A stretch of DNA of 64,000 bases from positions 186,971,725 through 187,035,724 of the forward strand of contig NC_080671.1 of the NCBI RefSeq assembly GCF_030247195.1. The letters are read 5' to 3'. Of the stretch, positions 21,650-63,560 are shown piece by piece. Origin of the DNA: Topomyia yanbarensis. Taxonomy: Eukaryota > Arthropoda > Insecta > Diptera > Culicidae. Numbering within the stretch: position 1 is the stretch's first letter; each line of letters opens with the position of its first letter. Both the position numbers and the translations under genes were made by a program. The notes below the pieces were generated by a model. The model worked only from the letters and a program-made list of their open reading frames with translations. It was not told the origin of the DNA and did not search any database.

Positions 21650-21680
21650 AATTATATTCCGAAAACTTGGTGACAAATTC

Positions 21681-22258
21681 GTGTTATTTTTATCCCTAAA
21701 GCCAACAAGAAGGACAAGACGAGTTTAAAATCTTTTAGACCAATTAGCCTTTCGTCATTTCTGCTGAAATTGATGGAGAAGCTGATTGATGACTACATTA
21801 AGTCTAATCACTTAAAATCGGTGCCATTAAGTAAATATCAATTTGCATACCAGCATAAAAAATCAACCATAATAACACTCCATACTCTTGTAACAAAAAT
21901 TGAAAAATCACTAGAATCTAAAGAACTTATGCTAGCCGTGTTTTTAGATATTCAAGGAGCATTTGACAATGCATCCCATACTTCAATGAAGAATGTCATG
22001 ATTCAACGAAATTTTGACAGAACAATTGTGGATTGGATTTCCGAAATGTTAAATAAAAGAGAAATAATATGCAGCCATGGAAGTTCAACAATCATTGCAA
22101 GGGCTGTGAAAGGATGTCCACAAGGAGGGGTACTCTCACCTCTGTTGTGTTCGTTGGTAGTTGATGGACTATTATCACAACTGGAGGCAAACGGATTTGA
22201 AATACTAACGCCATCTCAGTATTCTAAAAGAGTTCAAAATCAATCCGTTATTAAATGA
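21681..22258 (+). pseudogene. Reverse transcriptase domain lacking the YADD catalytic block
   Basis: Conserved blocks are present in order: VIFIPKANKK, KSFRPISLSSFLLK, YQFAYQHKKSTI (Q-hybrid-binding region), FLDIQGAFDNA (first catalytic aspartate) and KGCPQGGVLSPLLC. The frame then runs from LLSQLEANGFE into unrelated sequence and stops at 22,258. The block with the two adjacent catalytic aspartates (xADD) and the thumb are missing, so this RT cannot polymerise. The first ATG of the longest frame is at 21,770, but homology begins upstream. Confidence 0.8.
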
Positions 22259-22268
22259 AACTGACTGG

Positions 22269-22840
22269 ATGAATAGCAAATATAACTTTGAACGCCTATT
22301 CAACGTGTCTGAACCAAGCCGCACTGAATGGGAAACAGGAGGACCTACTGTTAAACCAGGATCAATATTTTTCTACACTGATGGTTCTAAACAGAGCAAC
22401 AAAGCTGGGGCTGGGGTAACTGGTCCTGGAGTTAACGTGTCAATATCTATGGGTAAATGGCCAACTGTATTTCAAGCGAAAGTACAGGCAATTATTGAAT
22501 GTGCCACGATTTGTTTACAACGCAACTACAGACATACGAATATATGCATCTTCTCTGATAGTCAAGTAGCCCTTAAAGCACTGAAGTCAGCTACGTGTTC
22601 CTCTAAATTGGTTTGGGAATGCATTCAATTGCTACAGCAGGTGGCTAGCTAAAGTACAGTGGATCTTTTCTGGGTACCTGGGCACTGTGGAATTGAAGGC
22701 AATGAAAAAGCAGACTTACTAGCAAGAAATGGATCATCAAAATTATTCGTAGGGCCTGAACCATTTTTTGGGGTCTCAGAATGAACCATAAAAATGGAAT
22801 TGAAGAACTGGGAAAATTCAATTCTAGAGGACATTTGGAA
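22269..22840 (+). pseudogene. RNase H domain of the same ORF2
   Basis: The frame 22,269-22,652 contains FYTDGSKQSNKAGAG (first catalytic Asp), AKVQAIIECATICL (Glu) and FSDSQVALKALK (Asp). It continues after a stop with FWVPGHCGIEGNEKADLLA (the His/Asp end of the active site). In living copies RNase H removes the RNA strand after first-strand synthesis. One in-frame stop near 22,652 and later ones near 22,780 inactivate it. Confidence 0.8.
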
Positions 22841-23175
22841 AAATAATACTACTGTCTGGCAATCTAAAAGATTTTCTCACCAAATAAAATAATAACTCAA
22901 CGGCTGCTTAGTATGTCTAAAAAGGATTTAAGTACTTTCAGTGGTTTAGTAACAGGGCACTGCCCGAGTAAATATTGCCTCAAGCAGTTAGGAAACATAG
23001 AAGATGATACCTGTCGCTTCTGCAACCTAGATAAGGAGAACTCAAAACATTTATTATGGAACTGTATAGCACTTTTCCACAAAAGGAGCAAATTCTTCGA
23101 TAAGGGGATAATACAACTCTTAGATGTATGGACGACTGCACCCAGTAAGGCAATAAAGTTTACAACACCCTGATG
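22841..23175 (+). pseudogene. ORF2 C-terminal Cys/His tail
   Basis: The frame open from 22,913 has LVTGHCPSKYCLKQLG followed by DDTCRFCNLDKENSKHLLWN, a C-x2-C-x7-H-type zinc-binding tail typical of I-like elements. It ends at 23,173. Stops just upstream (about 22,880-22,910) separate it from the RNase H part. Confidence 0.7.
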
Positions 23176-23253
23176 TGGCATACAATAAAAAGGGGCCTGC
23201 CACAATAGATCAAAACACTGGTCGCAGTGGAATATGCACCCAACAAAAAAAAA

Positions 23254-24192
23254 TCCTTATACTCGTTAGCTCCATTGAAAATGTGTCGATTGAAGCGTAA
23301 AATATGAAAATATGAATATTTTTTAATTATCTTTCGATGAAATAAAAGTTTAAGTTATCTTCGCTAAAAAGAATTTTGCTGTGTGCACAGTATTACCAGA
23401 TTGAATCTTCACAAACATAGCAACAAAATATAGTATGTTACTATATAGCAGAGAACGTTGGAATATTAGAATTAAATAAATTGAGTTTAACCCTCCAGAA
23501 GTCGCGCATATGGCTCACTGAACGAGCAGCCGCCCTACAAAAACAGTTTTCTCCGTACAGTTTTTTAGTGTGATTTTTCTCACAAAAGTACTCTTCAGTG
23601 TGCTTTTAGAGCATGGTTAGGGGCAACTTTTGCCGAACAAAAGAAAATAATTTTTATCGTGTCTGGTTCAAAAGTTATACATAATTTTCACTGACAAAAA
23701 TACGCCATTTTCAAATGTCGGCAAAGGGCAAGCGAAAATTGATAATTTTGATTGCATTTGAAAGATTGTATTTATGGCTATAATATATTAAAAATTTTAT
23801 TTTTCTCAAATAAACCAATATTACGCAGAAGCATTTTTACATACATTCCTACAGCGCTCATATAAAAAAATATTTGTTTTACGCAGATTCTGTGAATTTT
23901 TGCCAAGAATTTTCAAGGACCACATACATTTGCAAGCTAAAAAACTGTACGGATAAAATTGTTTTTTTGAGAGACACCCTAAGCTATGACATGGAACTCA
24001 CTAAAAAATGAAAACTGTTTGAGATACAAAGTTAGAATCTTCAACAAAATTGCTCGGAATTGTTCTAGAATATTGCAGAGGAAAATATCATTCTATTTCA
24101 ACTAAAATTTGAAATAATTTCTACAACTTTGACATTTTAAGGACCACCCTAAAACCGTTTCAACAAAAGACGCAGTTTATCACGCACAATAA
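23254..24192. repeat. Probable fold-back repeat with a lone TTAACCCTCC end; no gene
   Basis: TTTTCTCCGTACAGTTTTTTAG near 23,548 is repeated inverted near 23,938 (AAAAAACTGTACGGATAAAA). TTAACCCTCCAGAAGTCGCG at 23,489 looks like a piggyBac-type left end, but I found no matching right end nearby. The rest is AT-rich. Confidence 0.4.
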
Positions 24193-24239
24193 ATGTTTCT
24201 AAGACATCAAATCTCGAAATCCAAAGATGAAAGCGTAAT

Positions 24240-25310
24240 TAATTGTTTCCCGCTAATTTCGCTTACTGGACCACTGTGCAGTGTTGCAAAAGCCTTTGCC
24301 GTTGTTGCAGTGATGTGGTCGGCGAAACGAAGTTTTCTGTCGAACAACACTCCCAAGTCACGGATAGAGTCCACCATTTCGATGACACAGGCTTAAAGGG
24401 TACATTCGCAATACCCGACAATTGGCGAGCACCCAAAACGTATCACCGTACATTTATCGATATTGATCTGCATGCCATTTAGTAAGCACCATTCCTCTAT
24501 ATTGTCTATATCATCTCGAAACACAGCAGAGTCGAGTCCTGAGGCAATTGAGCGAAAAATTTTCAGATCATCAACGTAGAATAGTTTTCCAGACTTGTTG
24601 CGGGTGCAGAGGTCGTTGATGAATAAGAGAAAGATAAGTGGCCCTATGTGACTTCCATGAGGCACACTGGTTGGCGTTTCGAACGTGCTTGAACGTGTGG
24701 TACCAATTCTAACTAAAGCGGATCGCTCGGAGAGGTAGGAATGTACCCATCTGGTTACCCATCCAGGAAAACCGAATCGCTCCAGCTTCAAAACAGCAAT
24801 GTTGTGGGGCACCTTGTCGAATGCTTTCGCGAAATCAAAATATATTGCGTCCACTTTTTGACACTTCTCGACAGCTGGAACCAGAAAACTTGTGTACGTC
24901 ATCAAGTGGCGGAACGCTTTTTTACAAATCCAGACAAACTTTTCCAGAACTTTAGCTAGACAGTTCAGCAGCGAGATTCCTCTGTAGTTTTCGATATTGT
25001 GGATGTTTCCAGCTATATGGATGGGAACTATATCAGTTTCTTTCCATACACTTGGGAAAACATTTTCCGAGATTGAGAGCTGGAAAATTATGCTTACTGG
25101 TGCAGAGAGAGCTCGGGCACAATGTTTTATAAACGCAGGAGGCAAGCAATCCGGACCAGGTCCTTTCAACGGATCAACGCTGGATGGAGCGCTGAATACA
25201 TCGACATCATTAACGTTAGGACGAGGAACGTTGATAGTATACGTTGGTAATGTTTCAAGGTACCGTTGCAACGGATAGACAGGAGGTGAGTATAGATGTC
25301 GGAGGCTCAA
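24240..25310 (-). pseudogene. CR1/Jockey-like reverse transcriptase, degenerate
   Basis: A 305-codon frame (25,310-24,393) carries the RT series: LKGPGPDCLPPAF, ENYRGISLLNCLAKVLEKF, IYFDFAKAFDKVPHN (catalytic Asp), SVPHGSHIGPLIFLLFINDL and LFYVDDLKIFRS (the xxDD pair, here YVDD). Downstream of the stop near 24,393 the thumb continues (DSIRDLGVLFDRKLRF). VPHGS replaces the usual VPQGS. A segment is missing after KKAFRHLMTY compared with typical family members. In a live element this enzyme copies RNA at the nicked target. Confidence 0.8.
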
Positions 25311-25975
25311 TCAGTTCGAACACGTCCGTGTCGTTGACGAAGGCTAAATCAAGTGTCCGTCACGTTGCTAAGAAAGCAGATTTGATACAAACCACCAGCG
25401 ACCAGCGTTTCTGTGGTAGCTATCTCTTGTTCCGATGTTGCAGTTTCAGGAATGTAGCACTTGAGGTCGTCATCGAAGATCCACCGAAGATGAGGGAGAT
25501 TGTAATCGCCTACAACAAGTACATTGTCTTGTCGGTTGGTCTTCTCGAGAATATTCTAGACCGAGTGGAAGTTATACATGTCAAGATCGCTGTTCGGTCT
25601 CAGATAAATGCTGCAAACATATAAAGATCGGCCTGGCAGTGAAACACGTAGGACAACTTGTTCCAAATGTTCACATACAGGTAGCTTTGGTACAGTTCCA
25701 GTTAGATTTTTCTTTATCGCTATAAGAACACCACCTCCGCGACTTAGATGACTGGTGCGATCGCATCGGTAGATTACGTAGTTCGTCGATAGCTCAGCGT
25801 TTAATATGTCATCACTTAGCCAGGTTTCGGTGAGAACAATAATACCGTAGTCGCAGGAGGTGAAGGCAAGCAAGAAGGCCTGCGTTTTAGTTTTCATTCC
25901 GCGAACGTTCTGGTAGTAGACGGGCAGGAAATCATATGCTGTATGCGGCGGTGTGTCGCCTGAGGAGGGAGTTCA
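25311..25975 (-). pseudogene. APE-type endonuclease domain of the CR1/Jockey-like element
   Basis: Open from 25,897 to 25,556, preceded in frame by PVYYQNVRG, the usual start of this domain. Then come SCDYGIIVLTETWLSDDI (metal-binding Glu), SRGGGVLIAIKKN and YVCSIYLRPN. The catalytic histidine end (SDHxP) is not in this frame; the stretch 25,310-25,556 is shifted. It joins the upstream linker frame 26,145-25,894, which contains a PVFGGREGVF-like module also seen three times in the relative at 46 kb. Confidence 0.75.
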
Positions 25976-34150: not shown

Positions 34151-35192
34151 TAAATGATAAGTTTTTGAATAGCACACAATTTTGAATTTCTGTATTAGGT
34201 TAGTGCACACTGTACACTCTGTTCTCTGTACTGTGCTACACAAAAAGTATTTCAATTTGTCTGAGAACGATTGAGCCGAGAAGAAAATTTTTGTTTCGCG
34301 TCATTTTAACGCAATACCATTTTTATTGACGCTTCATTTCATTGTTACGAGGAATTCGTTCCGCACTAATACACTGTTGATCCGTAAATCCGTGATATCT
34401 GCAACAAACGTGTAAAAGAAAATTCTTTTAAAAGTGGACCGGGCAAAAACAATAGGCAATCACGAAGAGGGACTAAAATGTTGTGACTGATTGAATCTAT
34501 AAGCCAATAAGTTGGGATAAGAGTTTCGATTTCATGTCTTCAGTATGTGACAGTCTTTCGTTCCGTTTTTGCTCGTCATGGAATAAAATGAGAGAGATAA
34601 TCTTAAATAAGAGAGAAAAGAGAGGAAAAAATCAACCAATCGAAATCGACTCAAGATCACTCTTCTATCTTTACTATACACTCAACACGAGTTCTTTCCG
34701 AATTGCGCTCTGATCTTCTCATTTCGTCTTCGTTGCGTTAGGTGCAACAACTTGAAACATTTTTCCCAAATAGTGGTAAAACAAACATGTAATCAGACAA
34801 ACATTACAACTTTCTTCAAGAAATCATACATCATCTCTTCCAATCTTGATGATGATTGAAAAAAAATCAAGAGCTAATTATTTTTATTCATAAACCAACC
34901 TATTACTGATCAGATTAGTGTTCTCATATTTGTTTAATGAATTGACAAAAAGTTTTGCAAAAGTTTCACAGGAAACGGATAATTTGCTGTAATTTAAAAA
35001 CAGACAACTCTAAAAGAAAGCCTCTTCGGCAAATTAGATGCAAGGGCGATGTGTTCTCTTCCATGTGTCGGAAGCAAGTGATGCTGAAATTATTATCTAT
35101 GTTTATAGTTTCTAGTTATTTTGATGGTGTCATCAATGTTATATTTACCAAATTTTACGTAAATTAGAAGCATTGACTAATCATTGCTAAGT
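34151..35192. other. Interior of the hAT-like element, no gene seen
   Basis: AT-rich, with short frames only (for example 34,955-35,167 plus). No transposase motif was recognised. Confidence 0.3.
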
Positions 35193-35211
35193 AATTTTCT
35201 TTCGTACTATG

Positions 35212-35286
35212 TTGCGTTTCGGCTTCGCCTCATCAGAAACCGACACTAACGTATTGTCGGAATAGATTAGCGCCGGCTTGACGCAA
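35212..35286 (-). ncRNA. Hammerhead ribozyme, unit 1
   Basis: A complete 75-nt hammerhead reads on the minus strand. Helix III is UUGCGU with ACGCAA. The cleavage triplet is GUC. Helix I is AAGCCGGCGCUAA with UUAGUGUCGGUUU (13 pairs including G-U). The core is CUGAUGA. Helix II is GGC with GCC around a GAA loop. The second core element is GAA plus the A of helix III. Every invariant core base is present. The open end is at helix III (type III topology). Predicted cleavage is 3' of the C in GCGUC. Confidence 0.85.
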
Positions 35287-35555
35287 ATCCCTTAAAACTA
35301 AAACACACTATGTGTTTCAAACAAACGACTGATCAAACGTGATGTCCCGTTCGAGCAGAAGTTCTGTTTATGCCGATGAGACACAAGTGAAGCCGAAACT
35401 TGTCTTGGCTTAGCAGGCCTATGCGAAAGCACTATGCTATATTTCACCCTAAGGAGGAAAATTTGGTAAAAACCAAAATTTCTCACTAGGGTGAAAATTT
35501 GTTGGTAAAAACCAGTCTTTGTACAGGAGGGCACAAATCCTTATTTCATACTATG

Positions 35556-35630
35556 TTGCGTTTCGGCTTCGCCTCATCAGAAACCGACACTAACGTATTG
35601 TCGGAATAGATTAGCGCCGGCTTGACGCAA
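35556..35630 (-). ncRNA. Hammerhead ribozyme, unit 2
   Basis: Same 75-nt motif as unit 1, exactly 344 bp further on. Two successive cleavages in a minus-strand transcript would release a 344-nt RNA monomer. Confidence 0.85.
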
Positions 35631-35899
35631 ATCCCTTAAAACTAAAACACACTATGTGTTTCAAACAAACGACTGATCAAACGTGATGTCCCGTTCGAGC
35701 AGAAGTTCTGTTTATGCCGATGAGACACAAGTGAAGCCGAAACTTGTCTTGGCTTAGCAGGCCTATGCGAAAGCACTATGCTATATTTCACCCTAAGGAG
35801 GAAAATTTGGTAAAAACCAAAATTTCTCACTAGGGTGAAAATTTGTTGGTAAAAACCAGTCTTTGTACAGGAGGGCACAAATCCTTATTTCATACTATG

Positions 35900-35974
35900 T
35901 TGCGTTTCGGCTTCGCCTCATCAGAAACCGACACTAACGTATTGTCGGAATAGATTAGCGCCGGCTTGACGCAA
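35900..35974 (-). ncRNA. Hammerhead ribozyme, unit 3
   Basis: Third identical motif, again spaced 344 bp. The unit is truncated beyond about 36,128, where the orientation switches. Confidence 0.85.
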
Positions 35975-36354
35975 ATCCCTTAAAACTAAAACACACTATG
36001 TGTTTCAAACAAACGACTGATCAAACGTGATGTCCCGTTCGAGCAGAAGTTCTGTTTATGCCGATGAGACACAAGTGAAGCCGAAACTTGTCTTGGCTTA
36101 GCAGGCCTATGCGAAAGCACTATGCTATATTTTTACCAACAAATTTTCACCCTAGTGAGAAATTTTGGTTTTTACCAAATTTTCCTCCTTAGGGTGAAAT
36201 ATAGCATAGTGCTTTCGCATAGGCCTGCTAAGCCAAGACAAGTTTCGGCTTCACTTGTGTCTCATCGGCATAAACAGAACTTCTGCTCGAACGGGACATC
36301 ACGTTTGATCAGTCGTTTGTTTGAAACACATAGTGTGTTTTAGTTTTAAGGGAT

Positions 36355-36429
36355 TTGCGTCAAGCCGGCGCTAATCTATTCCGACAATACGTTAGTGTCG
36401 GTTTCTGATGAGGCGAAGCCGAAACGCAA
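36355..36429 (+). ncRNA. Hammerhead ribozyme, inverted unit 4
   Basis: Same 75-nt motif on the plus strand: TTTGCGTC at 36,354, CTGATGAGGCGAAGCCGAAA ending at 36,424, and helix III closing with ACGCAA at 36,429. Confidence 0.85.
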
Positions 36430-36698
36430 CATAGTATGAAATAAGGATTTGTGCCCTCCTGTACAAAGACTGGTTTTTACCAACAAATTTTCACCCTAGT
36501 GAGAAATTTTGGTTTTTACCAAATTTTCCTCCTTAGGGTGAAATATAGCATAGTGCTTTCGCATAGGCCTGCTAAGCCAAGACAAGTTTCGGCTTCACTT
36601 GTGTCTCATCGGCATAAACAGAACTTCTGCTCGAACGGGACATCACGTTTGATCAGTCGTTTGTTTGAAACACATAGTGTGTTTTAGTTTTAAGGGAT

Positions 36699-36773
36699 TT
36701 GCGTCAAGCCGGCGCTAATCTATTCCGACAATACGTTAGTGTCGGTTTCTGATGAGGCGAAGCCGAAACGCAA
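36699..36773 (+). ncRNA. Hammerhead ribozyme, inverted unit 5
   Basis: Same motif on the plus strand, 344 bp after unit 4. Plus-strand transcription would release one 344-nt monomer between these two sites. Confidence 0.85.
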
Positions 36774-36910
36774 CATAGTATGAAATAAGGATTTGTGCCC
36801 TCCTGTACAAAGACTGGTTTTTACCAACAAATTTTCACCCTAGTGAGAAATTTTGGTTTTTACCAAATTTTCCTCCTTAGGGTGAAATATAGCATAGGAA
36901 TTTTCTTTCG

Positions 36911-38032
36911 ATTAGTGAATAAATTCTGAGCAGTTTCGCTCAGTAGATTAAATTCTGGGTAGTTTGCATTAGTAGATTGAATCATTGAAATATATATTTG
37001 ACATTGTCCAAAAACCTACGAATTCCGAAATAAAACCTTCAAATGCTCAAATAAATAATTTTTACTTAATCTAGGTAATCTTCTCAAGTTACACCGGCTT
37101 TGCAAGATTGTTAAAAGTCAATAGAGCTAAGGTATTCTTGCTTTGTAATGAAATTAGTAGTTTTTTGTACTCATTTTACATTTTGACTTTTACTATAGTT
37201 TCAGGGATCTAGGAAAATCAGTCTACGATATTTTTAATTCGTAAGTGCAATGATATAAAAAGTACCTAAAAAGAATCTACTTAAATAGATAAAAAGATAG
37301 TTATTCTAAGTTGCCTGATAATATTGTCGAAGATAGTCTTTGACCCATTCCCCATGAGAGTCAACTGAAAAAACATGTGTTTTTCTCAGGATTGTTTTGA
37401 TTACGACATGATCTATATCATTTAAAATTTCATAAAGTCGAGTTAACGCAAACTTCGGATAAAGTCACAGAACTAGTAATAGTAGAAAGACGCCTGATCA
37501 TGAAAATAGGAGTTGAACCTATTTTCTGCATCTACAAATCGCCTGCTTTATTAGACGATTAGAAGCAAATTTCGACATTGGTTTCGTTCTCCTGATTAGC
37601 GAATGCGTGTAAAGTTTCGTGAGACGGGGTTTTGGATATTTTTTACTCATTCCAATTTGGCGTCTTCTACAAATTGTAAAGGTGTAGCGAATGTGTAGCA
37701 TTTTCAAGCAGCGTAGCATGCAGCGTAGCATTTTCAAGCAGCCCTAAATACTTTGAACTCTTGAATATTCATTTTTGCAACTAGAGAAATTTCTAACTTG
37801 TAAATTAAAAATAATCAAATTGAATTCGTCGATGCACTAAAGCCTTTCTTGTAACAGGCAACATATTATTAGGGTTTTTTAGTGTCTATTGTCTTAGTTT
37901 TGGAATTGTTTTCACTAAGAACTTTTCATAATTACGTTCAGTTTCCAGTGATTATTTCAAGTCATCAGAATTAATACATTTATGCAATAATTTTTAAGCC
38001 CTTCCCGAAACAAAATCCTGGCTACGGGCCTG
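36911..38032. other. Right part of the hAT-like element, no gene seen
   Basis: AT-rich. A minus-strand 72-codon frame at 37,737-37,519 has no recognisable domain. A short duplication GCGTAGCATTTTCAAGCAGC occurs near 37,710-37,741. Confidence 0.3.
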
Positions 38033-47764: not shown

Positions 47765-47954
47765 TTCTTCGCTGGTTTTTTCACAACACAAAAACAAGCA
47801 GGAGATACTTTTAAACAGCACAATAACAACTGCAAAAAAATCTCATTTGAATTAATACGATAAACAACGATAAAAACTTCACAAATCTGGTCAAAAATTG
47901 TAAATCGTTGAAGCGATTGATGTAAACAACTAACTCGGTAAGAATCGCTATCGC

Positions 47955-47999
47955 TAAGTTAGTGTCGGATTCTGATAAGAAGAAGTCGAAACGCAAATT
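47955..47999 (+). ncRNA. Hammerhead ribozyme relic, 3' half
   Basis: It carries the helix I 3' strand (TTAGTGTCGGATT), core CTGATAA (one change from CTGATGA), a weakened helix II and GAAACGCAA. The 5' half with the cleavage triplet is absent. Confidence 0.6.
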
Positions 48000-48621
48000 C
48001 CATATCTAATTTACTATCTATGATCGCATAGTTGTCCCGTTTTCTATGGGATTTCCTATCTTTATGGGACTGGTATGTGATTATGGGCAGTTTAGTTGTC
48101 TTCAAACATTTCATTTATAAAAATAATGATTCTCTAATCGGCATTATTCTACCAATCACACGGATTTTGAGAAAAATAAATATTGGTACTTAAAATCAAT
48201 AAATGATTTTTTGTTTTTAATAAATTTAATGGACACGATTTTTTCATTTAACTGAAAAAAAAAATCACAAAATTATCGACACTATAATTTATATTATTCA
48301 CTGCACACTTAATTTTTTCTACCGAATCTCAGCTTTTTGCATACTTGGCCAACAGCTGAGATTCAGCAAACATTATTTTTTGCTGAGATCTCGGTAAAAG
48401 TGATGTTTGAGTGCTGAGACTCGGAAAATTTTTAACCGAAAATCATCAAACTAATCCCACTTTACTGAGATATCAGTTTCTAAATTTGCTGACTACACAG
48501 CTGTTGGGAAATTACCGAACCAAATTGAGTGTGTGGGTATCCTCCAATCTTCACGAAAGTTTTTAATGCGCATATGAAAAATATATTGTATTTTTAATGA
48601 TGATGATTTAATCATTTAAAT
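48000..48621. other. AT-rich spacer
   Basis: No gene. CTGAGAT/ATCTCAG-type motifs recur in both orientations at 48,330-48,480, hinting at a decayed fold-back. Confidence 0.25.
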
Positions 48622-48802: not shown

Positions 48803-50640
48803 ATAAGAATACCAGTGAAAACAGTGGTCTACAAACTTTTGAAGAAATTTAATATCATTTCACCTAAGAAGCTGACGGCGAAGTGCTATGGAACATTTCA
48901 ATTGTGGACAATTTCGGGTTAGATCAAAGAACAAACCCAGCTTCTACCAAACTAAACGGTACCGTACGTTGTAATTTTCGCTATAAGTTTCAAGCAATTA
49001 AGTGGAACATCACAGACGAAATAAACAGAATACCAAAAGCGTCGATAAATCATAATGAGCGATCGATTTATAGCTTAAAATCGAAACAGGTAACACAAGT
49101 AGCGTCGAACATTCTAAATTGGACTCCTTCATCGACTGACCATGTTTCCAGCTTATCGCGTCACATAAAATGGCACAAATCACCCGTCTGGACCGAAAAC
49201 GAAGTTTGCCAATTTGTTTTAATATGAATTAAATTACGGGGGGATTGGAAAAAATTAGGAAAATTTACAGTGAAATCAGAAAATTATATACCAAAGCTCT
49301 GCTGGGCAAGCCAAGACCCCGTCTGGGGCCCTTCTGCGAGAGAGCGACCGACCGACGTGAAGCTGATGGTTGTGGAAAGAGACCCTTTTCTGTACGCCCC
49401 CGAGCGAGCTGCGGCGTGTCTGTCAGCGAAACGATCGTTCCATCGAGTCCCAGAACAAAGGGGGCGCTTCTTCTTGGCTGCCGCTGCTGATATACAATTA
49501 ATTCTTGTCTAATCTGTTTTTGGGCACCGATTTGGTCTGCACCGCCGTCACGACAGGCGGGAGAATCGGCACAAATTTTGGTCGCCCTGTGCCGTTTTGA
49601 TGATGAGCAGCAATAACTCTCCGAAAAAAAGGGTCTTGGTGCTGTATTCAAATGTAATTATTACTACAGCATCGCACTGTGGGATAGTCTCGGTTGATCG
49701 GTCATCGAAAATTGCGAAATGTTTTTTCGAAGCTGACTGGCATTATTTCCAATTGGTGGTTTTGTAATCTTTTAGATCGGTACTGCCACTTTCTTGACCT
49801 TGAAGTCATCAAGCTTGTACATAACCCAATGTGCAGGAAAGAATCAGTTCCACTCCAAGTGGTTCGAATATAGTAAAATCCTCCAAAAAGTCACGAGTTC
49901 CCAGAGGGCCTATCTTAGCATCATAGCCCGGCTGGGAAAGGTGGCTTCTTACAACCGTGTGATCCGTGAAGATATTTTTGCTGTCGAAGCGATGCATCAT
50001 GGAAGGACGATAATGGTGGGCTCGCATTCTATTCGTTTTATGAGAGCACATCATCAACTGACTGGTAAAATGAACCAAAAAAAAACACACTGCTCAACAG
50101 TTCAGATCGTCTGGCGAAACAAGATTCCAAATTGGTCTTTGATTGTGGGAACATTTGTTGGCGGGCAGCTAAAAGAATGGAGTGAACAAGAACGCCACTC
50201 TGCCCAGCAGCTCCTATTTTCTATTTCTCAACCTTACGCGTGTTTCGTGAGCGCTGCCGGGGGTTCTTTCCGACCGTTTGCTTCGTTCGTTGGTTGGCCG
50301 CTTCAAACATCTGAATTAAAGTCTGCAGCATAGATGTTCGCTCCGATGAATGCACTAATTTATCCTTCACCGCCAATGCTCCTACGGGCTGATGTGATCG
50401 TGTTTCTGGGAGAATTTTTCATCGTCACAGCCACAGGCACTACAGCTTTTAACATTCGAATCATTCATGGATACAGCTCGCAGGTGCTTTTCGGTGATAT
50501 TTTAACATTAGTGTTTGAAAAGATGGGAAAGTGGAAATGTGATTCTGAGACCAATTTACAATCAGTTAAAATTCGATTCTGATAAAGCGTTTGGTCCTCC
50601 AGTGTACTGATGCAAATTATAACCATCCCTTCTTCCTTCT
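48803..50640. other. Unassigned interval, possibly single-copy DNA
   Basis: It is GC-richer between 49,300 and 49,620. The longest frame (179 codons, 49,794-50,333 plus) begins at a TTG, has its first in-frame ATG about 65 codons in, and shows no domain. A 114-codon frame at 48,883-49,227 is also unrecognised. I do not call a gene, but this is one of the few stretches without transposon signatures. Confidence 0.3.
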
Positions 50641-51238
50641 TTGCTTCTTGCTTCTTGCTTCTTGCTTCTTGCTTCTTGCTTCTTGCTTCTTGCTTCTTGC
50701 TTCTTGCTTCTTGCTTCTTGCTTCTTGCTTCTTGCTTCTTGCTTCTTGCTTCTTGCTTCTTGCTTCTTGCTTCTTGCTTCTTGCTTCTTGCTTCTTGCTT
50801 CTTGCTTCTTGCTTCTTGCTTCTTGCTTCTTGCTTCTTGCTTCTTGCTTCTTGCTTCTTGCTTCTTGCTTCTTGCTTCTTGCTTCTTGCTTCTTGCTTCT
50901 TGCTTCTTGCTTCTTGCTTCTTGCTTCTTGCTTCTTGCTTCTTGCTTCTTGCTTCTTGCTTCTTGCTTCTTGCTTCTTGCTTCTTGCTTCTTGCTTCTTG
51001 CTTCTTGCTTCTTGCTTCTTGCTTCTTGCTTCTTGCTTCTTGCTTCTTGCTTCTTGCTTCTTGCTTCTTGCTTCTTGCTTCTTGCTTCTTGCTTCTTGCT
51101 TCTTGCTTCTTGCTTCTTGCTTCTTGCTTCTTGCTTCTTGCTTCTTGCTTCTTGCTTCTTGCTTCTTGCTTCTTGCTTCTTGCTTCTTGCTTCTTGCTTC
51201 TTGCTTCTTGCTTCTTGTTCCTTGCTTCTTGTTTCTTC
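50641..51238. repeat. 7-bp minisatellite (TTGCTTC)n, about 80 copies
   Basis: Uninterrupted CTTGCTT/AAGCAAG heptamers run from 50,641 to about 51,212, then degrade (TTGTTCC, TTGTTTC). The unit is not a multiple of three and has no stop in any phase, so long frames with period-7 peptides (LLASCFL or KKQEARS) open on both strands. These frames are artefacts. Confidence 0.95.
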
Positions 51239-52041
51239 CTTCCGACTTTGTCCATCCATCTACAGGTAAATGCAAAAATAGCACAAAGCGCCTGGGAAAC
51301 GAATTCATTGTGCACTTTTTTTAAAAGTATACATTATGTTTCTGAGCATAAATAGCACATACAATTTCCATTCCAGTCAAACGTTCTTTACTCGATCATA
51401 CCGATGATGATGATGATAATGATGATGCTCCAAAGGAATGCCGCGGCAAAAGGTGATAAGCATGCAGTTACACCAGGATCAACAGCTTCGTAAAATCGTC
51501 AAAAGCTGTATGTACACCGAAACGAACACGCCTGAACATATTGAAAATGAAACATAAATCATCGTGACACCCCCGAGCGGAATTGGCTCTCTGAAGGAGC
51601 CACTCTTGAACCTTGATTGCGCTTGGCTGGGAAAGTGGAACCAGTTTCAGGACCATTTCGCAAAACTTCATGGTGTGAGCTTGAGTATGTTGTACACGGT
51701 TGTCTTTAGTGGTACAGGTAACCCGATCAGGAGATCATAACAAGGCTGTATCTTCCGATGATATTTATTTTATTACATCGATGAGCAGAACTAACGTTAT
51801 AACGTGACCTCGCCTAGACAGGTTTGGATAAACTCTAAAGCTACTACAATACTATTGCATCCAATTAATCTTGCCCTACGACGTAATAGAAGACATAAAT
51901 TTTCTATCCATCTATGGGAGAAAATGGAACTAAAATTTTCCATCAGAAAAAATGGAACTATAAACTTATTCAAATTCAACAAATCGAATAAGGTCGTGAG
52001 CTATTAGGTCCCACCCACAACTGCTTCTCTAAAAGATTATC
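51239..52041. other. Unassigned spacer with a short GAT microsatellite
   Basis: (GAT)n at about 51,402-51,426. Short frames only, with no recognised protein. Confidence 0.3.
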
Positions 52042-52188
52042 TTTTGATTTATAGAGTTTTCAACCTTATTGTCAGTCGCCTCTATTTAGGGATTAGAAAA
52101 ATCTCTAATCCTATGAGCTGTGTTGAGAATTGAACCCAGGTGAGCTGCGCACACGGCCATCGACTTACCAACTACGCTATGCGCGCCC
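52042..52188 (-). mobile_element. tRNA-derived SINE (Feilai-like type)
   Basis: The minus strand starts GGGCGCGCATAGCGTAGTTG, with an A box (TAGCGTAGTTGGTAAG) and a B box (GGGTTCAATTC) at 52,130-52,141, spaced as in a tRNA promoter. A tRNA-unrelated body follows (GATTAGAGATTTTTCTAATC). RNA polymerase III would transcribe such an element. Flanking TAGAAAGATT and TAAAAGATT may be a decayed target duplication. Confidence 0.65.
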
Positions 52189-52287
52189 TTTAGAAAGATT
52201 CATAACATCTAAAGGAGAAAGCAAAATGCATAAACCGAAATATTGGATAAGGGTAGATAAAGCTTTGTTTTTCTGCACCAATGCGTG

Positions 52288-52365
52288 CCAACGTTTCGAG
52301 TTTCTCTCATCAGAATCCGACCCTAAGTTATTGACAGGAGTAATCTAGCGCCGGATTGACACTAG
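52288..52365 (-). ncRNA. Hammerhead ribozyme, diverged copy with compensatory helix changes
   Basis: The core CTGATGA and GAAA are intact. Helix II is GAG-AAA-CTC instead of GGC-GAA-GCC, so two pairs changed on both sides. Helix III is CUAGUGU with ACGUUGG, all pairs or G-U. The cleavage triplet is GUC. Helix I is AAUCCGGCGCUAG against its 3' strand with one mismatch. It could still fold and cleave. Confidence 0.75.
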
Positions 52366-52395
52366 CTCCAAAAAACGAAAACACAAATTGTGTTT

Positions 52396-52699
52396 GGGAT
52401 CATCCATAAATGGCGTAGCATTATATGGGGGAGGGGGGAGCTTTGTATATTGTGATGATGTGTGACGACAGGGGGAAGGGGGTCATGTCAGGCTACGTAG
52501 CTTTTTCAAAAGGGAATAACTAACATCGTTTATTATTTTTTTTTCAATTTTACGGTGACAAGGAGGGGGGGGGGGAGAATTACCGTCAAGCTACGTAATT
52601 ACCAGGGGGGTATTTAGAGGTTTGTGACAAAATGCTACGATGGGGGAGGGGGGTGTTAAAAATCACTCAAAAAATGCTACGTCATTTATGGATCGTCCC
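52396..52699. mobile_element. 304-bp MITE with GGGA(T/C) termini
   Basis: The ends GGGATCATCCATAAATGGCG and the inverted CATTTATGGATCGTCCC are flanked by TTT on both sides (52,393-52,395 and 52,700-52,702). A 3-bp target would fit a PIF/Harbinger-type element. The body has G-rich runs and a repeated GCTACGT motif. Confidence 0.65.
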
Positions 52700-52714
52700 T
52701 TTCTGAGTAAAACC

Positions 52715-52944
52715 GAAGACGCATATCAATAAGACTGACAACTCTGTCCAGAATCTGGAGATAGTAACAGCAACGCCACTTACGGGTAAAGGTGGTACTT
52801 CACATAGTGATGCACACACACACATATACATTTTTACATTAAGCTTCCTACCTTCCTCCAATAGAGGCGCTGTAACCTCTGTCGCTTCACATTTGTATGG
52901 GGGAAGGAAAGAGATATCAGTCTTCCTAATATGTAGTCTTCGGC
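52715..52944. mobile_element. 230-bp MITE with GAAGAC termini
   Basis: Inverted ends (CCGAAGACGCATATCAATAA against the complement of AATATGTAGTCTTCGG) are flanked by AAAACC (52,709-52,714 and 52,945-52,950). The true target may be only AAAA, with CC belonging to the terminus. It contains a CA microsatellite at about 52,813. Confidence 0.6.
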
Positions 52945-53854: not shown

Positions 53855-54675
53855 ACACATCATCAATTAATAGTTTTTGATCAAGAATAGTTTTCTGACA
53901 TTTTTTGTTCTTCCCAGACTTTTAAAATTATTATTTCAGGCATTTGAAAAAAGTATCTGGCATCTCTGCTGATGAGAATTAAGGGGTTATATATGTTGAG
54001 ATGCGGAAAAAAGGGAAAAGTTTCAATTTTTAAAAAGGTATGTAGCCAAATGTTTATGAAACACTTGTTATACGTTTAGCGTAGTACAATGTCCAATTTG
54101 CAAAATCCACTTGAGAAAATAAAAAAAAAATATTAATAATTGTCGAAGCTGTAGCAATTTCCGCAAAACGTTTTGTTTTCAAAGAGGTTTGCCGTGACTA
54201 CGATTCCAGCCCAACAGCTCAACAGAAATCATCAAACTAAAAAAATCATTAGTATATGTACCTGTGCTGTACGATCGATTAAAAAAAATTCTTCTTTTTG
54301 GAAACGGGGACGATTTTTACAAAAAAAATCACTATTTTCACCTAAAAAAAATAATTAAAAAAATCATAACAATAATATGAAAATTTTGACGAAAAATGGA
54401 ATCGTTCAAGGCAGTTAAATTACGAACAAATCAAAAAAGTTTTGAGAACGGTTGAAAACTTTTCTGGCACCTCCATAAGGGAACGATATGAAAACCGCTA
54501 TAACTTTGCATCCACTGCTCTGGTCTATATAAAAATTTGCGGTAACAATCTTAAGTACCTGAGCTTTAAGATAGAAGAATAAAAAAAATCGATTTTTTGG
54601 ACGACCTCAACATATATAAACCCTTAATAAACTGAAAGTTGGCTTAGCAATCCAATGCAAAATGCACTCTGCTAT

Positions 54676-55461
54676 AGGGGAAGATGGGGTAAAACGCACC
54701 CCGGGGCAAAATGCACCCCTTGCTTATTTCGAAAACAGCTGAAAATTTCTAGAAAAGGGTAACACCAGTCGGAAGTCCACCATAGTAAACATACACTGTC
54801 AAAGTTTGATAACCGTACATCAATAGCAGCTCGAGTAATAAACAAAAAAACAATAACGTGCTCTTCTCATGTGATTATTGTGGCTCATGCAATAAAGATT
54901 TTCAGCTCTTATAAATGCTGTTTTACTATTATATCAGTGCATTCCAGTTCTATTTATACCGTAGCTCATTATTTTGTGGCACAATGTACGAAAAATCTAC
55001 TAAATAGTTCACTTTTTGCTAAATTTATATCGCTGCTCCATCGGGGGCAAAATGCCCTGTTCTTTGATTTTGCTGGTTTTTTAATCGAAAAAAGAAAAAT
55101 CGTTCTGAAAACCTACTAATTGCATAGCCGAAGGCTATTTTATGGCACACTTTTGTGAAATCTCGTCAGAAAACAAAACTACATGCTTGTTCGCCGAGCA
55201 TTATGCCCCGTTGTTGCGGTTCATTCTGCCCCGTTGTTGTGATGCATTTTACCCCGCTTATTTTTCAAAAGGTATGTTTTAATGATTTTGAAAAATTGAA
55301 TTATTTGCGCATTTTTGAATATTTTGCAAAGCGTTATGATTGCGATTACGGAGGAAAATGTTGTCTAAACGATATCATTAATTGAATTCTCCCAATTGAT
55401 GTTCTACAGCTGAGTTATGATCATATTAAGTTAGGGGATGCGTTTTACCCCATCTTCCCCT
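54676..55461. mobile_element. 786-bp inverted-repeat element with AGGGGAAGATGGGG termini
   Basis: The left end AGGGGAAGATGGGGTAAAAC (54,676) is mirrored by GTTTTACCCCATCTTCCCCT (55,461) with no mismatch over 20 bp, flanked by AT (or TA, depending on phase). The interior repeats GGGGCAAAATGC/TGCCCCGTTG-like motifs. No transposase. Confidence 0.7.
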
Positions 55462-58840: not shown

Positions 58841-59366
58841 ATATGTTCTTAACTGACGTAGCGAAAGACGCTGAAAACCGCTATTATGGCCAGAAGAATT
58901 TTATATTAGGATTCAGCGTTACACAATGAATCTGAATGATTCAACAGCTTGTATGTTCTTGAACCAATTTCACTAAATAATCAACCAAGCAAAGAGGAAC
59001 CACTATTCCAGAGAGAAGAGAATACTGATATCCTCTCTCTCAATGATACTCACAACTGTTCATCATTATAATGATACGTGCTTATGCAAGCGTGTGTGGA
59101 TATATTCGTTCCTGTTTCTGTTTCTGTTTCCTCGTGTTGTTGCTTCGGTATCCATAGCGGCAATTCATTCGGTTGGGGTGAACGCAAGCGTTTTACTGAA
59201 CTGTATTGTGGTTCGTTCGGATTGAATTTGAATGAATGGTGAAAGCTCTGCCAGTTTCATTTCATTAATTCTTATCAGTGTAAACCAGAACTTCTTTTCT
59301 TGCGGGACATCACGTAGGACTAGGGGTTTGCTCAGAAACGCAAATTGTGTTTTCGTTTTCTGAAGC

Positions 59367-59443
59367 AAGCGTAAATCCGGCGCTAGCTTAGTCCTGTCAC
59401 TAAATTAGATTCAGGTTCTCATTAAAGGAACTCGAAACGCCTC
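59367..59443 (+). ncRNA. Hammerhead ribozyme relic, inactive
   Basis: Helix III (AAGCGT with ACGC) and most of the helix I 5' strand are present. The core reads CTCATTA instead of CTGATGA, so two invariant G residues are lost. The triplet is GUA. The same defects occur in the copy at 62,357-62,432. Confidence 0.65.
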
Positions 59444-59790
59444 TCCAATAACTAAATTAGAAAGTTTTACCATTTTCTGATTCGGGGGGGAGTAGGGTTG
59501 AATAACCTACCCGTCTTAATAACCTCGGATTCCTCAAGTAAGATAATTTTCATTAATCGCTTTCACCGCCATCTTTATAGCTTTCTTCTTCCGCCAGAAG
59601 AGTTTTGGCGTCTTCTGAAATTCGTTTGGGCCTTTTTTTTGGGACATCCCCGCGCTTTAGTCATGAAAGGATCCGAAGATACTAACAACCAATGCATCAG
59701 ATCTTCGTTTCTTCCTGGTGTGATGTCCACGATATCTGCGAATTGTGATTACATTTGTGCTTTTAATTACCTTTTCTATTATTTATTTTT

Positions 59791-60166
59791 CTACTCCTGA
59801 GCTTCTTCTGAAAGTTGCCCAATTGGGACCAACAGATGTTCCATAACATCAGATCCATGTATTAGAATTTTATGTGCACCTAAAAGAGGGCGGCCCCATG
59901 GATATAATTGAACGCACAAGCGAGCAGTATCTCCGCATTTTGTTTTGATTATAACACTTGGAAAGTTTCGGTTCGACCAACAGAGCACCCTGTCAAATGA
60001 GCCTCCCTTCCTATCAACTCTTATTTTGTAAAATGCATTGGGCTTATATTTCAATGTTTCTATTTGAGAAAACTCAATTAAACTTATCACATCATAAAAT
60101 TCGAACTTGATTTTTTTGCAAGATTAGCTGCAATGTTTCGTTTTCGCAATAAATAAATTGCGTTAT
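59791..60166 (-). pseudogene. Exon-like conserved frame, copy 1 (unknown protein)
   Basis: Reading the minus strand, a splice-acceptor-like CCTTTCATAG ends at 60,167. The frame is then open for about 125 codons to TAG at 59,791 (NAIYLLRKRNIAANLAKKIK, then YKPNAFYKIRVDRKGGSFDR, then FPSVIIKTKCGDTARLCVQL). The second copy (62,799-63,180) differs by three amino acids and a 6-bp in-frame insertion. Composition is protein-like. The FPSVII...GDTARLCVQLYP region vaguely recalls beta strands of Rel-type DNA-binding domains, but I would not assign it. It is probably a captured host exon. Confidence 0.4.
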
Positions 60167-60472
60167 CTATGAAAGGTGAGTTACAAATAACAGTTATAAT
60201 TTTCTTGGAGATGAAATTCCGGAGGGTACCCTTTTCAAAAAAAGAGCTGAAGACTAAAAAATGTTGACCGGATATTCTAGCCAGACTGGAAGAAATCTAC
60301 CATACGATTTGCACAAAGGCAAATGCGAACTAGAAAGGAATGTGTGAGAAACAAAATTACATAGAATATTGTATTATTTCCACTCGTTCTCAGATTATTG
60401 GATGATGGCTCATAGGACAATGTTTCAGTTTAATAAGAAACTCAAATTTTCATAAATTAGTTAAGGAATATA

Positions 60473-62104
60473 CACTGCTGGCCAATAAAATAGGTGTGTG
60501 ATTGATTATTTTGTTTTTCCTTCAATTACGCATACCAAGTTGCAGCAGTCTCAATTACACCTACCGCACACAGAAGCCTTGGGATCTGTCAAGTTAGTAG
60601 TGGGTTGTTTGCGCTGATTATATTTGCAATATTTGTCAAGATGCAAAACAAGACTACCGCAGGCCTTTTCGTGTGGTCAATATAATAGGTGTGTGAAATA
60701 TATTAACGTGTTATTATTTTACATAATTCCATTATACGTTTTATTTGGTGAAGTTTGAATTCTGCGTGTTAATAAATGTATTTAAATGTTGAATAAGTCA
60801 AAAATTTGTTATAGAATGGGTCGAACATCTCACTGTACTCAAGTGGAGCGAGTTTTGCTAAGAAATTTTGTTCAAGAAGACAAGACGTATAAATAAATCG
60901 CGAATACACTGCGGCGTTCCAAAAACTTCGTTATAAAAACCTTAAAACCTTTGAAAAAAGGAAACACGCTAAAAACCCAAGAAAACATCTACAGCAGCTG
61001 ACCATCGTATTGCAATTTTAGCGAAATCTGATCCATTCGCGTCATATAAGACCAATTCAGCACAAATTGGAAAAGGTGTAGGTCCGAGAACAGTTCGCTG
61101 TAGGGCGTAAAATTCCAATCTTCCAAAAAGAATTGCTAAGAAGGTTCCACTATTTCGAAGCCAAAGCCTTTGAAGAAAAATGCAATTTGCTTTTCAACAG
61201 CGTTAATGCGCCTGGTTCAGAAGGAATCAAAAAATGGTGACATATCCTTCGGAGGGACGAATCAAAGGTAAACCTGTTTTCCTCCGATGCACAACGAAAC
61301 GTTAAACGTCCAAAGTACAAACAGTTTGATCTGCGACACACGCAAAATATGGTAAAACACGGAGGTGAGAACAATGAGGTTTGGGGCTTGCTTTTCGTGG
61401 AATGGCGCAGGTCCTATTCTTCACAACACCACTATAATGGCAAGATTCGAATGCAAGGCTAAAGGATGGACATCCTAAAGGATGTCATGCAGTCCTATGC
61501 CAAAGATAACGTGCCTTTACATGACAGTTTCAGCAAGATATTGACCAAAAACACACATCGAAGCATGTAAAGGAATGATTTCGGGATAATAAAGTGACTA
61601 TAATTTCGGACCATGCCGATCTCCTGTCATTAATCCCGTAGAAAATTTACGGAATGTACTTAAAAAGAAGTTATTCGATTGAAATTTCACAAATAAGGAT
61701 CGTTTGTGGGAAGCAGCTAAAAAGGAATGGTACCCTATACCAACGGAAATTTATCAGCGTTTGAATGACTCAATGCCAAGACAAATGGATGAAATTTGGT
61801 TGAATAAGGGAGCTTACACAGGTTACTAGTTGTTAAAAATGTTGAAATCTTAAAATCATTGGATTTGAAAAATTTTAATGCAATAGATTACAACACACCT
61901 ATTTCATTGACCAGGTACTTTTTTGGATTTCATGGAGAAGAAAGAGTTACGACAAAGCATAACATTTAATTTACAAATAAAAGTGTTCTTTTTCATATTT
62001 ACGACTGTGCCTAACTATAAAATATTTGAATATAAAAATGTTTTTAGAGAAAACTCAAAATTTCATGTATTTTTATCTCACACCTATTTTATTGACCAGC
62101 AGTG
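60473..62104 (+). mobile_element. Tc1/mariner-like transposon, 1.63 kb, defective
   Basis: The termini CACTGCTGGCCAATAAAATA and inverted TATTTTATTGACCAGCAGTG are flanked by TA (60,471-60,472 and 62,105-62,106). It encloses a broken transposase gene. It lies exactly between the two 1.37-kb direct repeats. Confidence 0.85.
60816..61829 (+). pseudogene. Tc1-like transposase, multiply frameshifted
   Basis: The start ATG is at 60,816 (MGRTSHCTQVERVLLRNFVQ), followed by helix-turn-helix sequence interrupted by a stop (IANTLRRSKNFVIKTLK). Next come DESKVNLFSSDAQRNVKRPK (first catalytic Asp region, near 61,257), QQDIDQKHTSKHVKE in one frame (second Asp, near 61,533) and INPVENLRNVLKKKLFD with KEWYPIPTEIYQRLNDSMPR near the end. 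At least five indels or stops occur. In live relatives this DDE enzyme cuts and pastes the element at TA sites. Confidence 0.8.
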
Positions 62105-62356
62105 TATATTCGTTCCTGTTTCTGTTTCCTCGTGTTGTTGCTTCGGTATCCATAGCGGCAATTCATTCTGTTGGGGTGAACGTTTTACTGAACTGTATTG
62201 TGGTTCGTTCGGATTGAATTTGAATGAATGGTGGAAGCTCTGCCAGTTTCATTTCATTAATTGTTATCAGTTTAAACCAGAACTTCTTTTCTTGCGGGAC
62301 ATCACGTAGGACTAGGGGCTTGCTCAGAAACGCAAATTGTGTCTTCGTTTTCTGAA

Positions 62357-62432
62357 GCTAGCGTAAATCCGGCGCTAGCTTAGTCCTGTCACTAAATTAG
62401 ATTCAGATTCTCATTAAAGTAACTCGAAACGC
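62357..62432 (+). ncRNA. Hammerhead ribozyme relic, inactive (copy 2)
   Basis: Same motif and same core damage (CTCATTA) as at 59,367-59,443, so the ribozyme was already dead before the 1.37-kb segment duplicated. Confidence 0.65.
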
Positions 62433-62798
62433 CTCTCCAATAACTAAATTAGAAAGTTTTACCATTTTCTGATTCGGGGGGAGTAGGGTTGAATAACCTA
62501 CCCGTCTTAATAACCTCGGATTCCTCAAGTAAGATAATTTTCATTAATCGCTTTCACCGCCATCTTCATAGCTTTCTTCTACCGCCAGAAGAGTTTTGAC
62601 GTCTTCTGAAATTCGTTTGGGCCTTTTTTTGGGACATCCCCGCGCTTCAGTCATGAAAGGTTCCGTAGATACCAACAACCAATGCATCAGATCTTCGTTT
62701 CTTCCTTGTGTGATGTCCACGATATCTGCGAATTGTGATTACATTTGTGAATTATATTAATTAAAAGCTTTTAATTACCTTTTCTATTATTTATTTTT

Positions 62799-63180
62799 CT
62801 ACTCCTGAGCTTCTTCTGAAAGTTGCTCAATTGGGACCAACAGATGTTCCATAACATCAGATCCATGTATTAGAATTTTATGTGCACCTAAAAGAGGGCG
62901 GCCCCATGGATATAATTGAACGCACAAGCGAGCAGTATCTCCGCATTTTGTTTTGATTATAACACTTGGAGAGTTTCGGTTCGACAAACAGAGCACCCTG
63001 TCAAATGAGCCTCCCTTCCTATCAACTCTTATTTTGTAAAATGCATTGGGCTTATATTTCAATGTTTCTATTTGAGAAAACTCAATTAAACTTATCACAT
63101 CATAAAATTCGAACTTGATTTTTTTGCAAGATTAGCTGCAATGTTTCGTTTTCGCAATAAATAAATTGCGTTATCTTTAT
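62799..63180 (-). pseudogene. Exon-like conserved frame, copy 2
   Basis: Counterpart of 59,791-60,166, open from the acceptor-like site at 63,181 to the stop at 62,799. Substitutions are Trp to Leu, Phe to Ser and Gly to Glu. A CTTTAT duplication adds two codons without breaking the frame. Further along the minus strand, a Lys/Arg-rich frame (GCPKKRPKRISEDVKTLL, near 62,620) is open here but shifted in copy 1 by one extra A. Confidence 0.4.
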
Positions 63181-63485
63181 CTATGAAAGGTGAGTTACAA
63201 ATAACAGTTATAATTTTCTTGGAGATGAAGTTCCGGAGGGTACCCTTTTCAAAAAAAGAGCTGAAGACTAAAAAATGTTGACCGGATATTCTAGCCAGAC
63301 TGGGAGAAATCTACCATACGATTTGCACAAAGGCAAATGCGAACTAAAAAGGAATGTGTTAGAAACAAAATTACATAGAATATTGTATTATTTCCACTCG
63401 TTCTCAGATTATTGGATGATGACTCATAGGACAATGTTTCAGTTTAATAAGAAACTCAGATTTTCATAAATTAATTAAGGAATAT

Positions 63486-63560
63486 ACGTTTCATTTTCGT
63501 CTCATCAGAACCAGACAATCACTTAGTGACAAGACTAAGCTAGCGCCGGATTGACGCTAG
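63486..63560 (-). ncRNA. Hammerhead ribozyme-like motif, degraded helix II
   Basis: The minus strand has CTAGCGTC, the helix I 5' strand AATCCGGCGCTAGC, core CTGATGA and GAAACG. Helix II (GAC...AAT) no longer pairs well, and helix III is shortened to about four pairs. Activity is doubtful. Confidence 0.6.

Follow-up and report, generated by a model that had tools for sequence, protein, structure and literature searches.

The window, a 64,000-nucleotide stretch of the Topomyia yanbarensis genome, contains at positions 35205-36897 an insert of 1,693 bp that is accounted for entirely, with 0 mismatches, by a single 344-nt unit. The array consists of repeated units alone. They are read first in the antisense direction (2.70 units, 928 bp, 35205-36132, with the hammerhead sense on the minus strand) and then in the sense direction (2.23 units, 36130-36897, plus strand). 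The two arms meet at 36130-36132 in three nucleotides that they have in common, TTT, where unit position 180 (m180, counted from m1 at 36362) is joined to m113. The outer end of the left arm is m75 and that of the right arm is m192; these positions belong to what are called below site A and site B. A perfect 12-bp target-site duplication (TSD), AATTTTCTTTCG, flanks the insert at 35193-35204 and 36899-36910; 0 of 200,000 random position pairs share 12 bp ending there. A single G at 36898 belongs to neither unit nor TSD, and a G following GCATAG is also found at several other loci. The unit has a GC content of 41.9%, and no stop-to-stop frame of at least 110 aa is listed in 35205-36898. The TSD-bounded array with five identical hammerheads that the original prediction described is therefore real. 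Its count of three units plus two inverted ones holds for the complete hammerheads, but not for the true lengths of the arms.

Three of these hammerheads lie on the minus strand (35212-35286, 35556-35630 and 35900-35974) and two on the plus strand (36355-36429 and 36699-36773). Each is built from UUGCG-UC, a closed helix I of 13-14 bp, CUGAUGA, GGC-GAA-GCC (a 3-bp helix II with a GAA loop), and GAAA-CGCAA, with cleavage predicted, in the first of them, 3' of the C of GUC. As had been claimed from the letters, all invariant core bases are present in all five copies, and helix III is the open helix in every one of them, giving a type III topology. A relaxed hammerhead rule is satisfied 6 times by the true sequence of the window, 5 times in the array and once in an older relative, B, versus 4 times in 60 dinucleotide shuffles taken together. 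The Rfam scan that had been proposed as a check gave no match in the window at gathering cut-offs. At a loose threshold Hammerhead_3 did appear, but with 18.7 bits against a cut-off of 48.5 (E 1.1) and in the wrong register, which is why the array escapes detection at the gathering cut-off. On the opposite strand no second ribozyme was recognised. The antisense CCGAUGAG...GAAAC resembles a minus-strand hammerhead because it pairs with the core, and that candidate was dropped.

Folded as a circular monomer, the unit has a predicted energy of -113.7 kcal/mol (z -7.0 versus 200 shuffles), with 68.6% of its bases paired. Here, the catalytic core (m44-64) is predicted to pair with a blocking arm, m225-251 (36586-36612, plus strand); forcing the hammerhead costs about 10 kcal/mol. 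A stable hairpin occupies m126-182 (36487-36543, plus strand). The motif GAAA-N5-CATAGT occurs on the plus strand at m60-74 (36421-36435), directly before site A, and at m179-193 (36540-36554), at site B; two such motifs arise by chance in 2 of 200,000 shuffles of the unit, a figure to be read with the fact that the motif was chosen after the sites were known. A weak tRNA-like stretch with possible Pol III boxes lies at 36195-36265 (plus strand), with 16.6 bits (E 0.53) in the tRNA model, under the 29-bit cut-off; ARAGORN gives no tRNA there.

About 1 kb on either side of the insert (34205-37910) recurs at five other places in the genome, with an identity of at least 99.29%; at one of them, L014, the left flank was matched over 330 bp only. 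The number of units in the insert differs in two of the recurrences, L011 and L016. All six places have one TSD and flanks in common, and therefore represent one insertion that was duplicated along with its surroundings. A 1,694-bp composite serving as the mobile unit, suggested by its recurrence at about full length at three further places, is ruled out by the same observation, as those three and two others have the same TSD and flanks. Thus, the "recent insertion" of the original prediction stands as a retroelement insert with a TSD, but the insert appears to have travelled within a larger repeat, and may have been carried to its present place rather than inserted there. A separate locus, L015, has the same m180-to-m113 inner join as the window copy, yet another TSD and other variants; the common join is possibly a hot spot caused by the hairpin.

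The genome searched comprises 1,168,131,283 bases (1.17 Gb), and the three contigs met in the search measure 217.8, 470.2 and 428.6 Mb. An exact 23-nt hammerhead core occurs 1,791 times on the plus strand and 1,808 times on the minus strand, 3,599 in all, with 0 and 0 for a reversed-pattern control. Two sets of loci were analysed. The first held the window locus and 39 further loci picked by similarity to the insert; 25 remain once 5 copies that duplicate the window insertion and 10 edge-truncated loci are left out. The second took the first 40 of 69 clusters of listed cores on contig C1, consecutively and without regard to arrangement. It requires at least one exact core per cluster and so favours young copies. 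In viral and bacterial contig collections, searched with one pattern each, no related locus was found, and a 21-nt core was matched exactly once (L001).

The interspersed copies have their own TSDs and multi-unit arms. The proposed search for other TSD-bounded arrays thus succeeded, and a plain satellite without insertion-site duplications is not what the genome contains. In the second set, 24 clusters read antisense-then-sense, 0 read sense-antisense, and 16 are one-directional; among the 100 cores listed, the two-strand clusters are minus-then-plus in 21 of 21 cases. The inverted half is, therefore, the commonest insertion product (24/40) and not an oddity of the window copy, and the idea that it came from a one-off twin-primed insertion was dropped, the same geometry being found at many loci.

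The outer ends, where cDNA synthesis would start, are not scattered. In the second set, 59 of 64 fall at one of two unit positions, A (m66-86, mostly m75-84) or B (m186-201, mostly m191-198), windows that together cover 37 of the 344 unit positions. For the 24 two-armed insertions this amounts to 43 of 48 outer ends. Nineteen of these insertions have one end at each site, 0 use the same site twice, and 5 have one end elsewhere; different-site ends in 19 of 19 give a sign test value of 3.8e-6. The first set (25 loci) behaves similarly, with 17 A/B or B/A, 1 A/A, 2 with one end off site, and 5 one-directional. The A/A case, L035, has no TSD that could be found, and one of the edge-cut loci, L019, reads sense-antisense-sense. 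One-directional copies keep one fixed end only, while inner joins and arm lengths vary among loci.

The target sites carry a signature of their own. TSDs measure 11-13 bp in 16 of the 19 A/B insertions of the second set (one has 7 bp, two have none) and 10-14 bp in 16 of the 17 A/B loci of the first set; of 400 mispaired ends, 0 gave 11 bp or more. When 32 sites are oriented with the A-primed strand on top, the consensus is AAAC|TSD|GTTT. Its GTTT side is the clearer (T3 in 28/32, G1 in 20/32), and the mirror AAAC side is weaker (C in 18/32, A-3 in 20/32). This consensus fits the nicking of both target strands at about T/GTTT. The A-side primer ends in T at 25 of the 32 sites, and could pair with the AAA of m78-80.

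What template was copied can be asked of the arms themselves. Among 37 complete two-armed loci of both sets, 38 of 74 arms are longer than one unit, the longest having 1,849 nt; the one-directional L020 has 3,005 nt. A variant carried by every unit of one arm recurs in its partner arm 55:4 (25 loci), whereas arms of different loci agree 806:2457 (Fisher p 2e-28). The two arms would thus mostly have been copied from one circle or from identical circles. Rare variants alone give a between-arm agreement of 10:3. At L017, L036 and L047 the variants differ between arms, so there either two circles would have been used or units changed later; L017 suggests that two circles can serve one insertion. 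That the 344-nt RNA was closed to a circle is what these multi-unit, same-variant copies point to. Taken together with the TSDs at interspersed sites, the matching template variants bear out the earlier proposal of a multimeric, hammerhead-bearing, non-coding retroelement.

Of 37 inner joins, 16 have two or more bases in common (16.6% expected) and 9 have three or more (5.4% expected), and 16 have unaligned bases instead; under a stricter exact-match count, 6 of 25 joins have two or more and 3 of 25 three or more. Inner ends are scattered, with groups, judged by eye, near the foot of the m126-182 hairpin. They are enriched at the cleavage site (7/95 versus 1.9 expected), which makes it probable that some templates were linear. 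For the window copy, snap-back of one cDNA was considered and rejected by reasoning: with the sense arm starting at m113 and the antisense arm stopping at m180, a loop of about 280 nt would be needed, and the two fixed outer ends would go unexplained.

Relatives of the unit occur elsewhere in the window. B (52279-52379, minus strand) has an intact hammerhead core, C (59352-59454, plus) and its tandem duplicate D (62344-62446, plus) have damaged cores, and G (47904-48008, plus) has lost the 5' strand of helix I. E (minus) and F (plus) form another antisense-then-sense pair, at 63468-63857. Its TSD, CAAATTTTCAT, stands at 63858-63868; the left copy (63457-63467, 11 bp) has one mismatch, and is exact in the tandem duplicate at 60443-60453. 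A hammerhead model, R1, was built from A-E, where A is the array, so the recovery of these five is expected; it adds F (E 1.8e-4) and G (E 1.4e-4). A and B each retain the hammerhead fold with changes on both sides. Across A-E, 5 hammerhead pairs have changed on both sides versus 0-2 in slid controls, a number reached in 8 of 500 shuffles. From these diverged relatives, the family is judged to be old and the window array a member of a young subfamily.

A 21-mer of the older copies occurs 263 and 318 times on the two strands of the genome (581 exact), and among the first 100 places listed, counted by eye, pairs less than 1.5 kb apart are minus-plus in 4 cases and plus-minus in 0. Older copy F keeps GAAA-N5-CAUAGT at the B site, and E is without CAUAG at the A site. 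The blocking arm in relative C is significant when scored with the family-consensus core (3/1000 shuffles), but not with C's own damaged core (178/1000) or with that of A (125/1000); in D the figure is 45/1000. Template variants fall in the 12 core positions at 0 of 26 distinct sites against 0.9 expected, a count that is not significant as a measure of selection on the core.

C and D lie in the two copies, 95% identical, of a tandemly duplicated stretch of about 1.4 kb at 59108-63487. A DNA transposon that looks Tc1-like by eye (about 60478-62105) is inserted at the joint, and each copy holds a 110-aa frame that resembles repeated aphid and spider proteins. A MITE-like element with terminal inverted repeats GGGACGATCCATAAATG (judged by eye) was inserted into B at 52402-52930, and a tRNA-like SINE head adjoins B at 52130-52206, with A-box- and B-box-like stretches by eye and no tRNA from ARAGORN. 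A weak fragment at 54639-54693 (E 0.023) resembles unit positions 183-219 and keeps TATAGCA.AGTGC and TTGCTAAGCCAA. CTTCTTG is repeated 87.6 times at 50629-51242. Two decayed non-LTR-like reverse transcriptases lie at 21674-25972, one of them 49% identical to a Culex pipiens protein; two frames of the window match proteins of that species, at 49% and 36%.

A GIY-YIG search of the genome gave at least 5 matches, with 150 of 439 candidates scored, and one of these sits in a 465-aa open frame with reverse transcriptase and GIY-YIG domains, which by domain order is a Penelope-like element (PLE). Its relatives number 4,881 first-look candidates, 40 of which were scored. Among those scored, counted by eye, a common 3' end (query 1617-1629) stops 38 of 57 matches; opposite-strand pairs less than 3 kb apart are minus-then-plus in 8 of 8, with the 3' end on both outsides in 5 of the 8. 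At C2:169421907-169426787, two long Penelope-like matches are arranged back to back, each with its 3' end facing out. The original prediction had looked to a Penelope-like reverse transcriptase sharing the ends of the array. Such an enzyme and such outward pairs were found, but the 3' end (L090, about 3221) is unlike site A or B. Equating it with site B was tried and rejected, as most copies stop at a 3' end that is 38 nt beyond the CATAGTG of L090. The PLE of the same genome would be a likely source of the enzyme.

The ends, TSDs, targets, order of the arms and their agreement can all be read directly in the DNA. The reading that we consider probable is that of a non-autonomous element of the retrozyme kind, in which both nicked strands of the target prime reverse transcription of an RNA circle, each at its own site. 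Here, transcripts would be cut by their type III hammerheads, and the 344-nt RNA would be closed to a circle. A reverse transcriptase-endonuclease, likely supplied by the PLE, would then nick both strands of an AAAC|11-13 bp|GTTT target. Of the two 3' ends, one would prime on the circle at site A and its partner at site B, a GAAA-N5-CAUAGU motif lying at either site. The cDNAs would each travel round the circle, for part of a turn or for up to several turns, and the two cDNA ends would be joined inside, often at a few common bases, to leave a TSD-bounded antisense-then-sense array. A one-directional array would result when a single end primes. Cleavage, ligation, the enzyme and its possible dimer are the steps that we infer.

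A more specific version can be put forward, to which we give about an even chance. The circle might be a two-headed integration template, in which each of the two GAAA-N5-CAUAGU motifs (m60 and m179) seats one subunit of the reverse transcriptase-endonuclease. The dimer would nick both strands of the palindromic AAAC/GTTT target, and both subunits would roll round one ring. If this is true, twin priming would be the built-in route and palindromic arrays the normal form.

Other histories might, of course, leave similar DNA. In a foldback DNA transposon or a satellite, units would vary by recombination and the hammerhead would be incidental; the array is indeed a near-palindrome, and the window copy recurs at six places. 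Those six, however, go back to a single insertion that was duplicated together with its flanks, the other loci differ in arm length and inner join, and one-directional copies keep one fixed end, which leaves this account scarcely credible. Template switching, in which one cDNA begun on a sense circle jumps to an antisense circle with no second priming, would likewise give the antisense-sense order, and plant retrozymes show RNAs of both polarities (PMC4918200). It predicts a random second outer end, yet 43 of the 48 fall on site A or B, and the T/GTTT nick is visible on both sides of the target; we regard it as very unlikely.

The two remaining alternatives retain the circle. One supposes an autonomous viroid-like RNA of the insect, repeatedly captured by a host reverse transcriptase, with the genomic copies as by-products and not as source. 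A hammerhead-bearing RNA of 344 nt that would form a strongly self-paired circle, its core blocked as in viroids and plant retrozymes (PMC7229834), fits this description, as does the fact that two-armed insertions, followed inward, represent cDNA of no RNA but the hammerhead-sense one. Against it, 3,599 exact cores and 581 older-subfamily 21-mers fit a long-resident element, and the other strand has no second ribozyme that we recognised; the proposal is unlikely. The other keeps the same life cycle but draws the enzyme from a LINE with an APE endonuclease instead of the PLE. L1 TSDs are of a similar size order, peaking at 14-16 bp, L1 inversion is common (639/2068 insertions; PMC2912911), and reverse-transcriptase remnants lie within the window. 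The PLE of this genome has outward opposite-strand pairs, 5 of 8 with the 3' end at both outer ends, however, and SINEs mobilised by L1 rarely invert (one case for Alu, 4/477 for SVA; PMC2912911). A LINE enzyme is thus a possibility of some substance, if a doubtful one.

If the two-strand, two-site reading is correct, these insertions would record the re-entry of a hammerhead circle into DNA: target-primed, on both strands, from two fixed sites, mostly on the same or an identical molecule, and into a palindromic target. The reaction would become testable in vitro with the 344-nt RNA and the Penelope-like protein of the same genome. Palindromic loci would also arise naturally from the element, and their transcripts could pair into double-stranded RNA.

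How does this element compare with those already described? The hammerhead repeats of Schistosoma, known as Sm-alpha, are type I. The Schistosoma repeat carries a tRNA (PMC4918200); the tRNA-like part of the array is weak. In Aedes aegypti, interspersed repeats likewise place hammerheads in a mosquito genome (PMC3088659). There, loop III is closed and palindromic, the ribozyme may work in dimeric form, and the RNA that was assayed showed no activity, whereas helix III of the array is open. Type III hammerheads in insect genomes are already in print (PMC7936874, PMC7761336), the elements named in PMC7761336 being described as in preparation. The HDV-like circles and the termite and dipteran hammerheads of PMC7936874 resemble the array in type, in their long helix I and in their insect setting. 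Those hammerheads, however, have a 5-bp stem, an internal loop, and a pseudoknot to the loop of a 6-bp helix II, where the array has an unbroken helix I of 13-14 pairs and closes its 3-bp helix II with GAA, and the termite copies are isolated motifs.

Two other kinds of reverse-transcribed element bear comparison. In L1 twin priming (PMC2912911), both target ends prime on RNA and an inverted join with common bases is left between TSDs. The RNA there is linear, the second end anneals internally, and inversion affects 30.9% of insertions; the array would use two fixed sites on a circle, in 24 of 40. A Penelope-like element would carry an ORF with reverse transcriptase and GIY-YIG domains, which the array unit lacks, having no frame of at least 110 aa; the PLE is separate in the genome. 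PLE retroelements have been proposed as helpers of retrozymes (PMC7229834, PMC7761336).

The retrozymes themselves offer two parallels. Among the open-licence papers listed, none describes twin priming from two sites of a circle, or a retrozyme of an animal whose hammerhead is type III. The metazoan non-LTR retrozymes (Cervera and de la Pena 2020, PMC7229834) are multimeric, non-coding hammerhead repeats of 150-450 bp, with GC below 50% and TSDs of more than 4 bp, and the array unit resembles them in its 344 bp, its GC content, its TSDs (mostly 11-13 bp) and its lack of a frame of at least 110 aa. Their RNA occurs as linear and circular monomers, and the circles are self-paired, as the circle predicted here would be. 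Their hammerheads are type I, whereas all five copies here are type III. A blocked core, as predicted here, is reported in PMC7229834 for plant retrozymes and viroids and not predicted for most animal circles. The same paper asks for a "properly primed" circle, names target priming as one option, and leaves the enzyme open; in its main text the word "inverted" occurs 0 times, and we saw no account of two-site outward arrays. Plant LTR retrozymes, defined among other features by LTRs with a PBS and a PPT, have the type III hammerhead, the blocked core and the circular template in common with the array (PMC4918200), but are about 700 nt long with a 4-bp TSD, against 344 nt, mostly 11-13 bp and a GC of 42% in an array of unit repeats alone.

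Thus, judged from its sequence, the element is outside the type I metazoan retrozymes, by its hammerhead type, and outside the plant LTR retrozymes, by the length of its TSD. In the wide sense, a retrozyme is a non-autonomous retroelement with a self-cleaving ribozyme and a circular template. The multi-unit arms, common template variants, TSDs and fixed start ends point indirectly to RNA-templated multimeric insertion, and the hammerhead has its invariant core bases and pairs that covary. The element would be a new variant of the retrozyme in that sense, and appears to work like one in which reverse transcription on the circle starts from two strands at two fixed sites.
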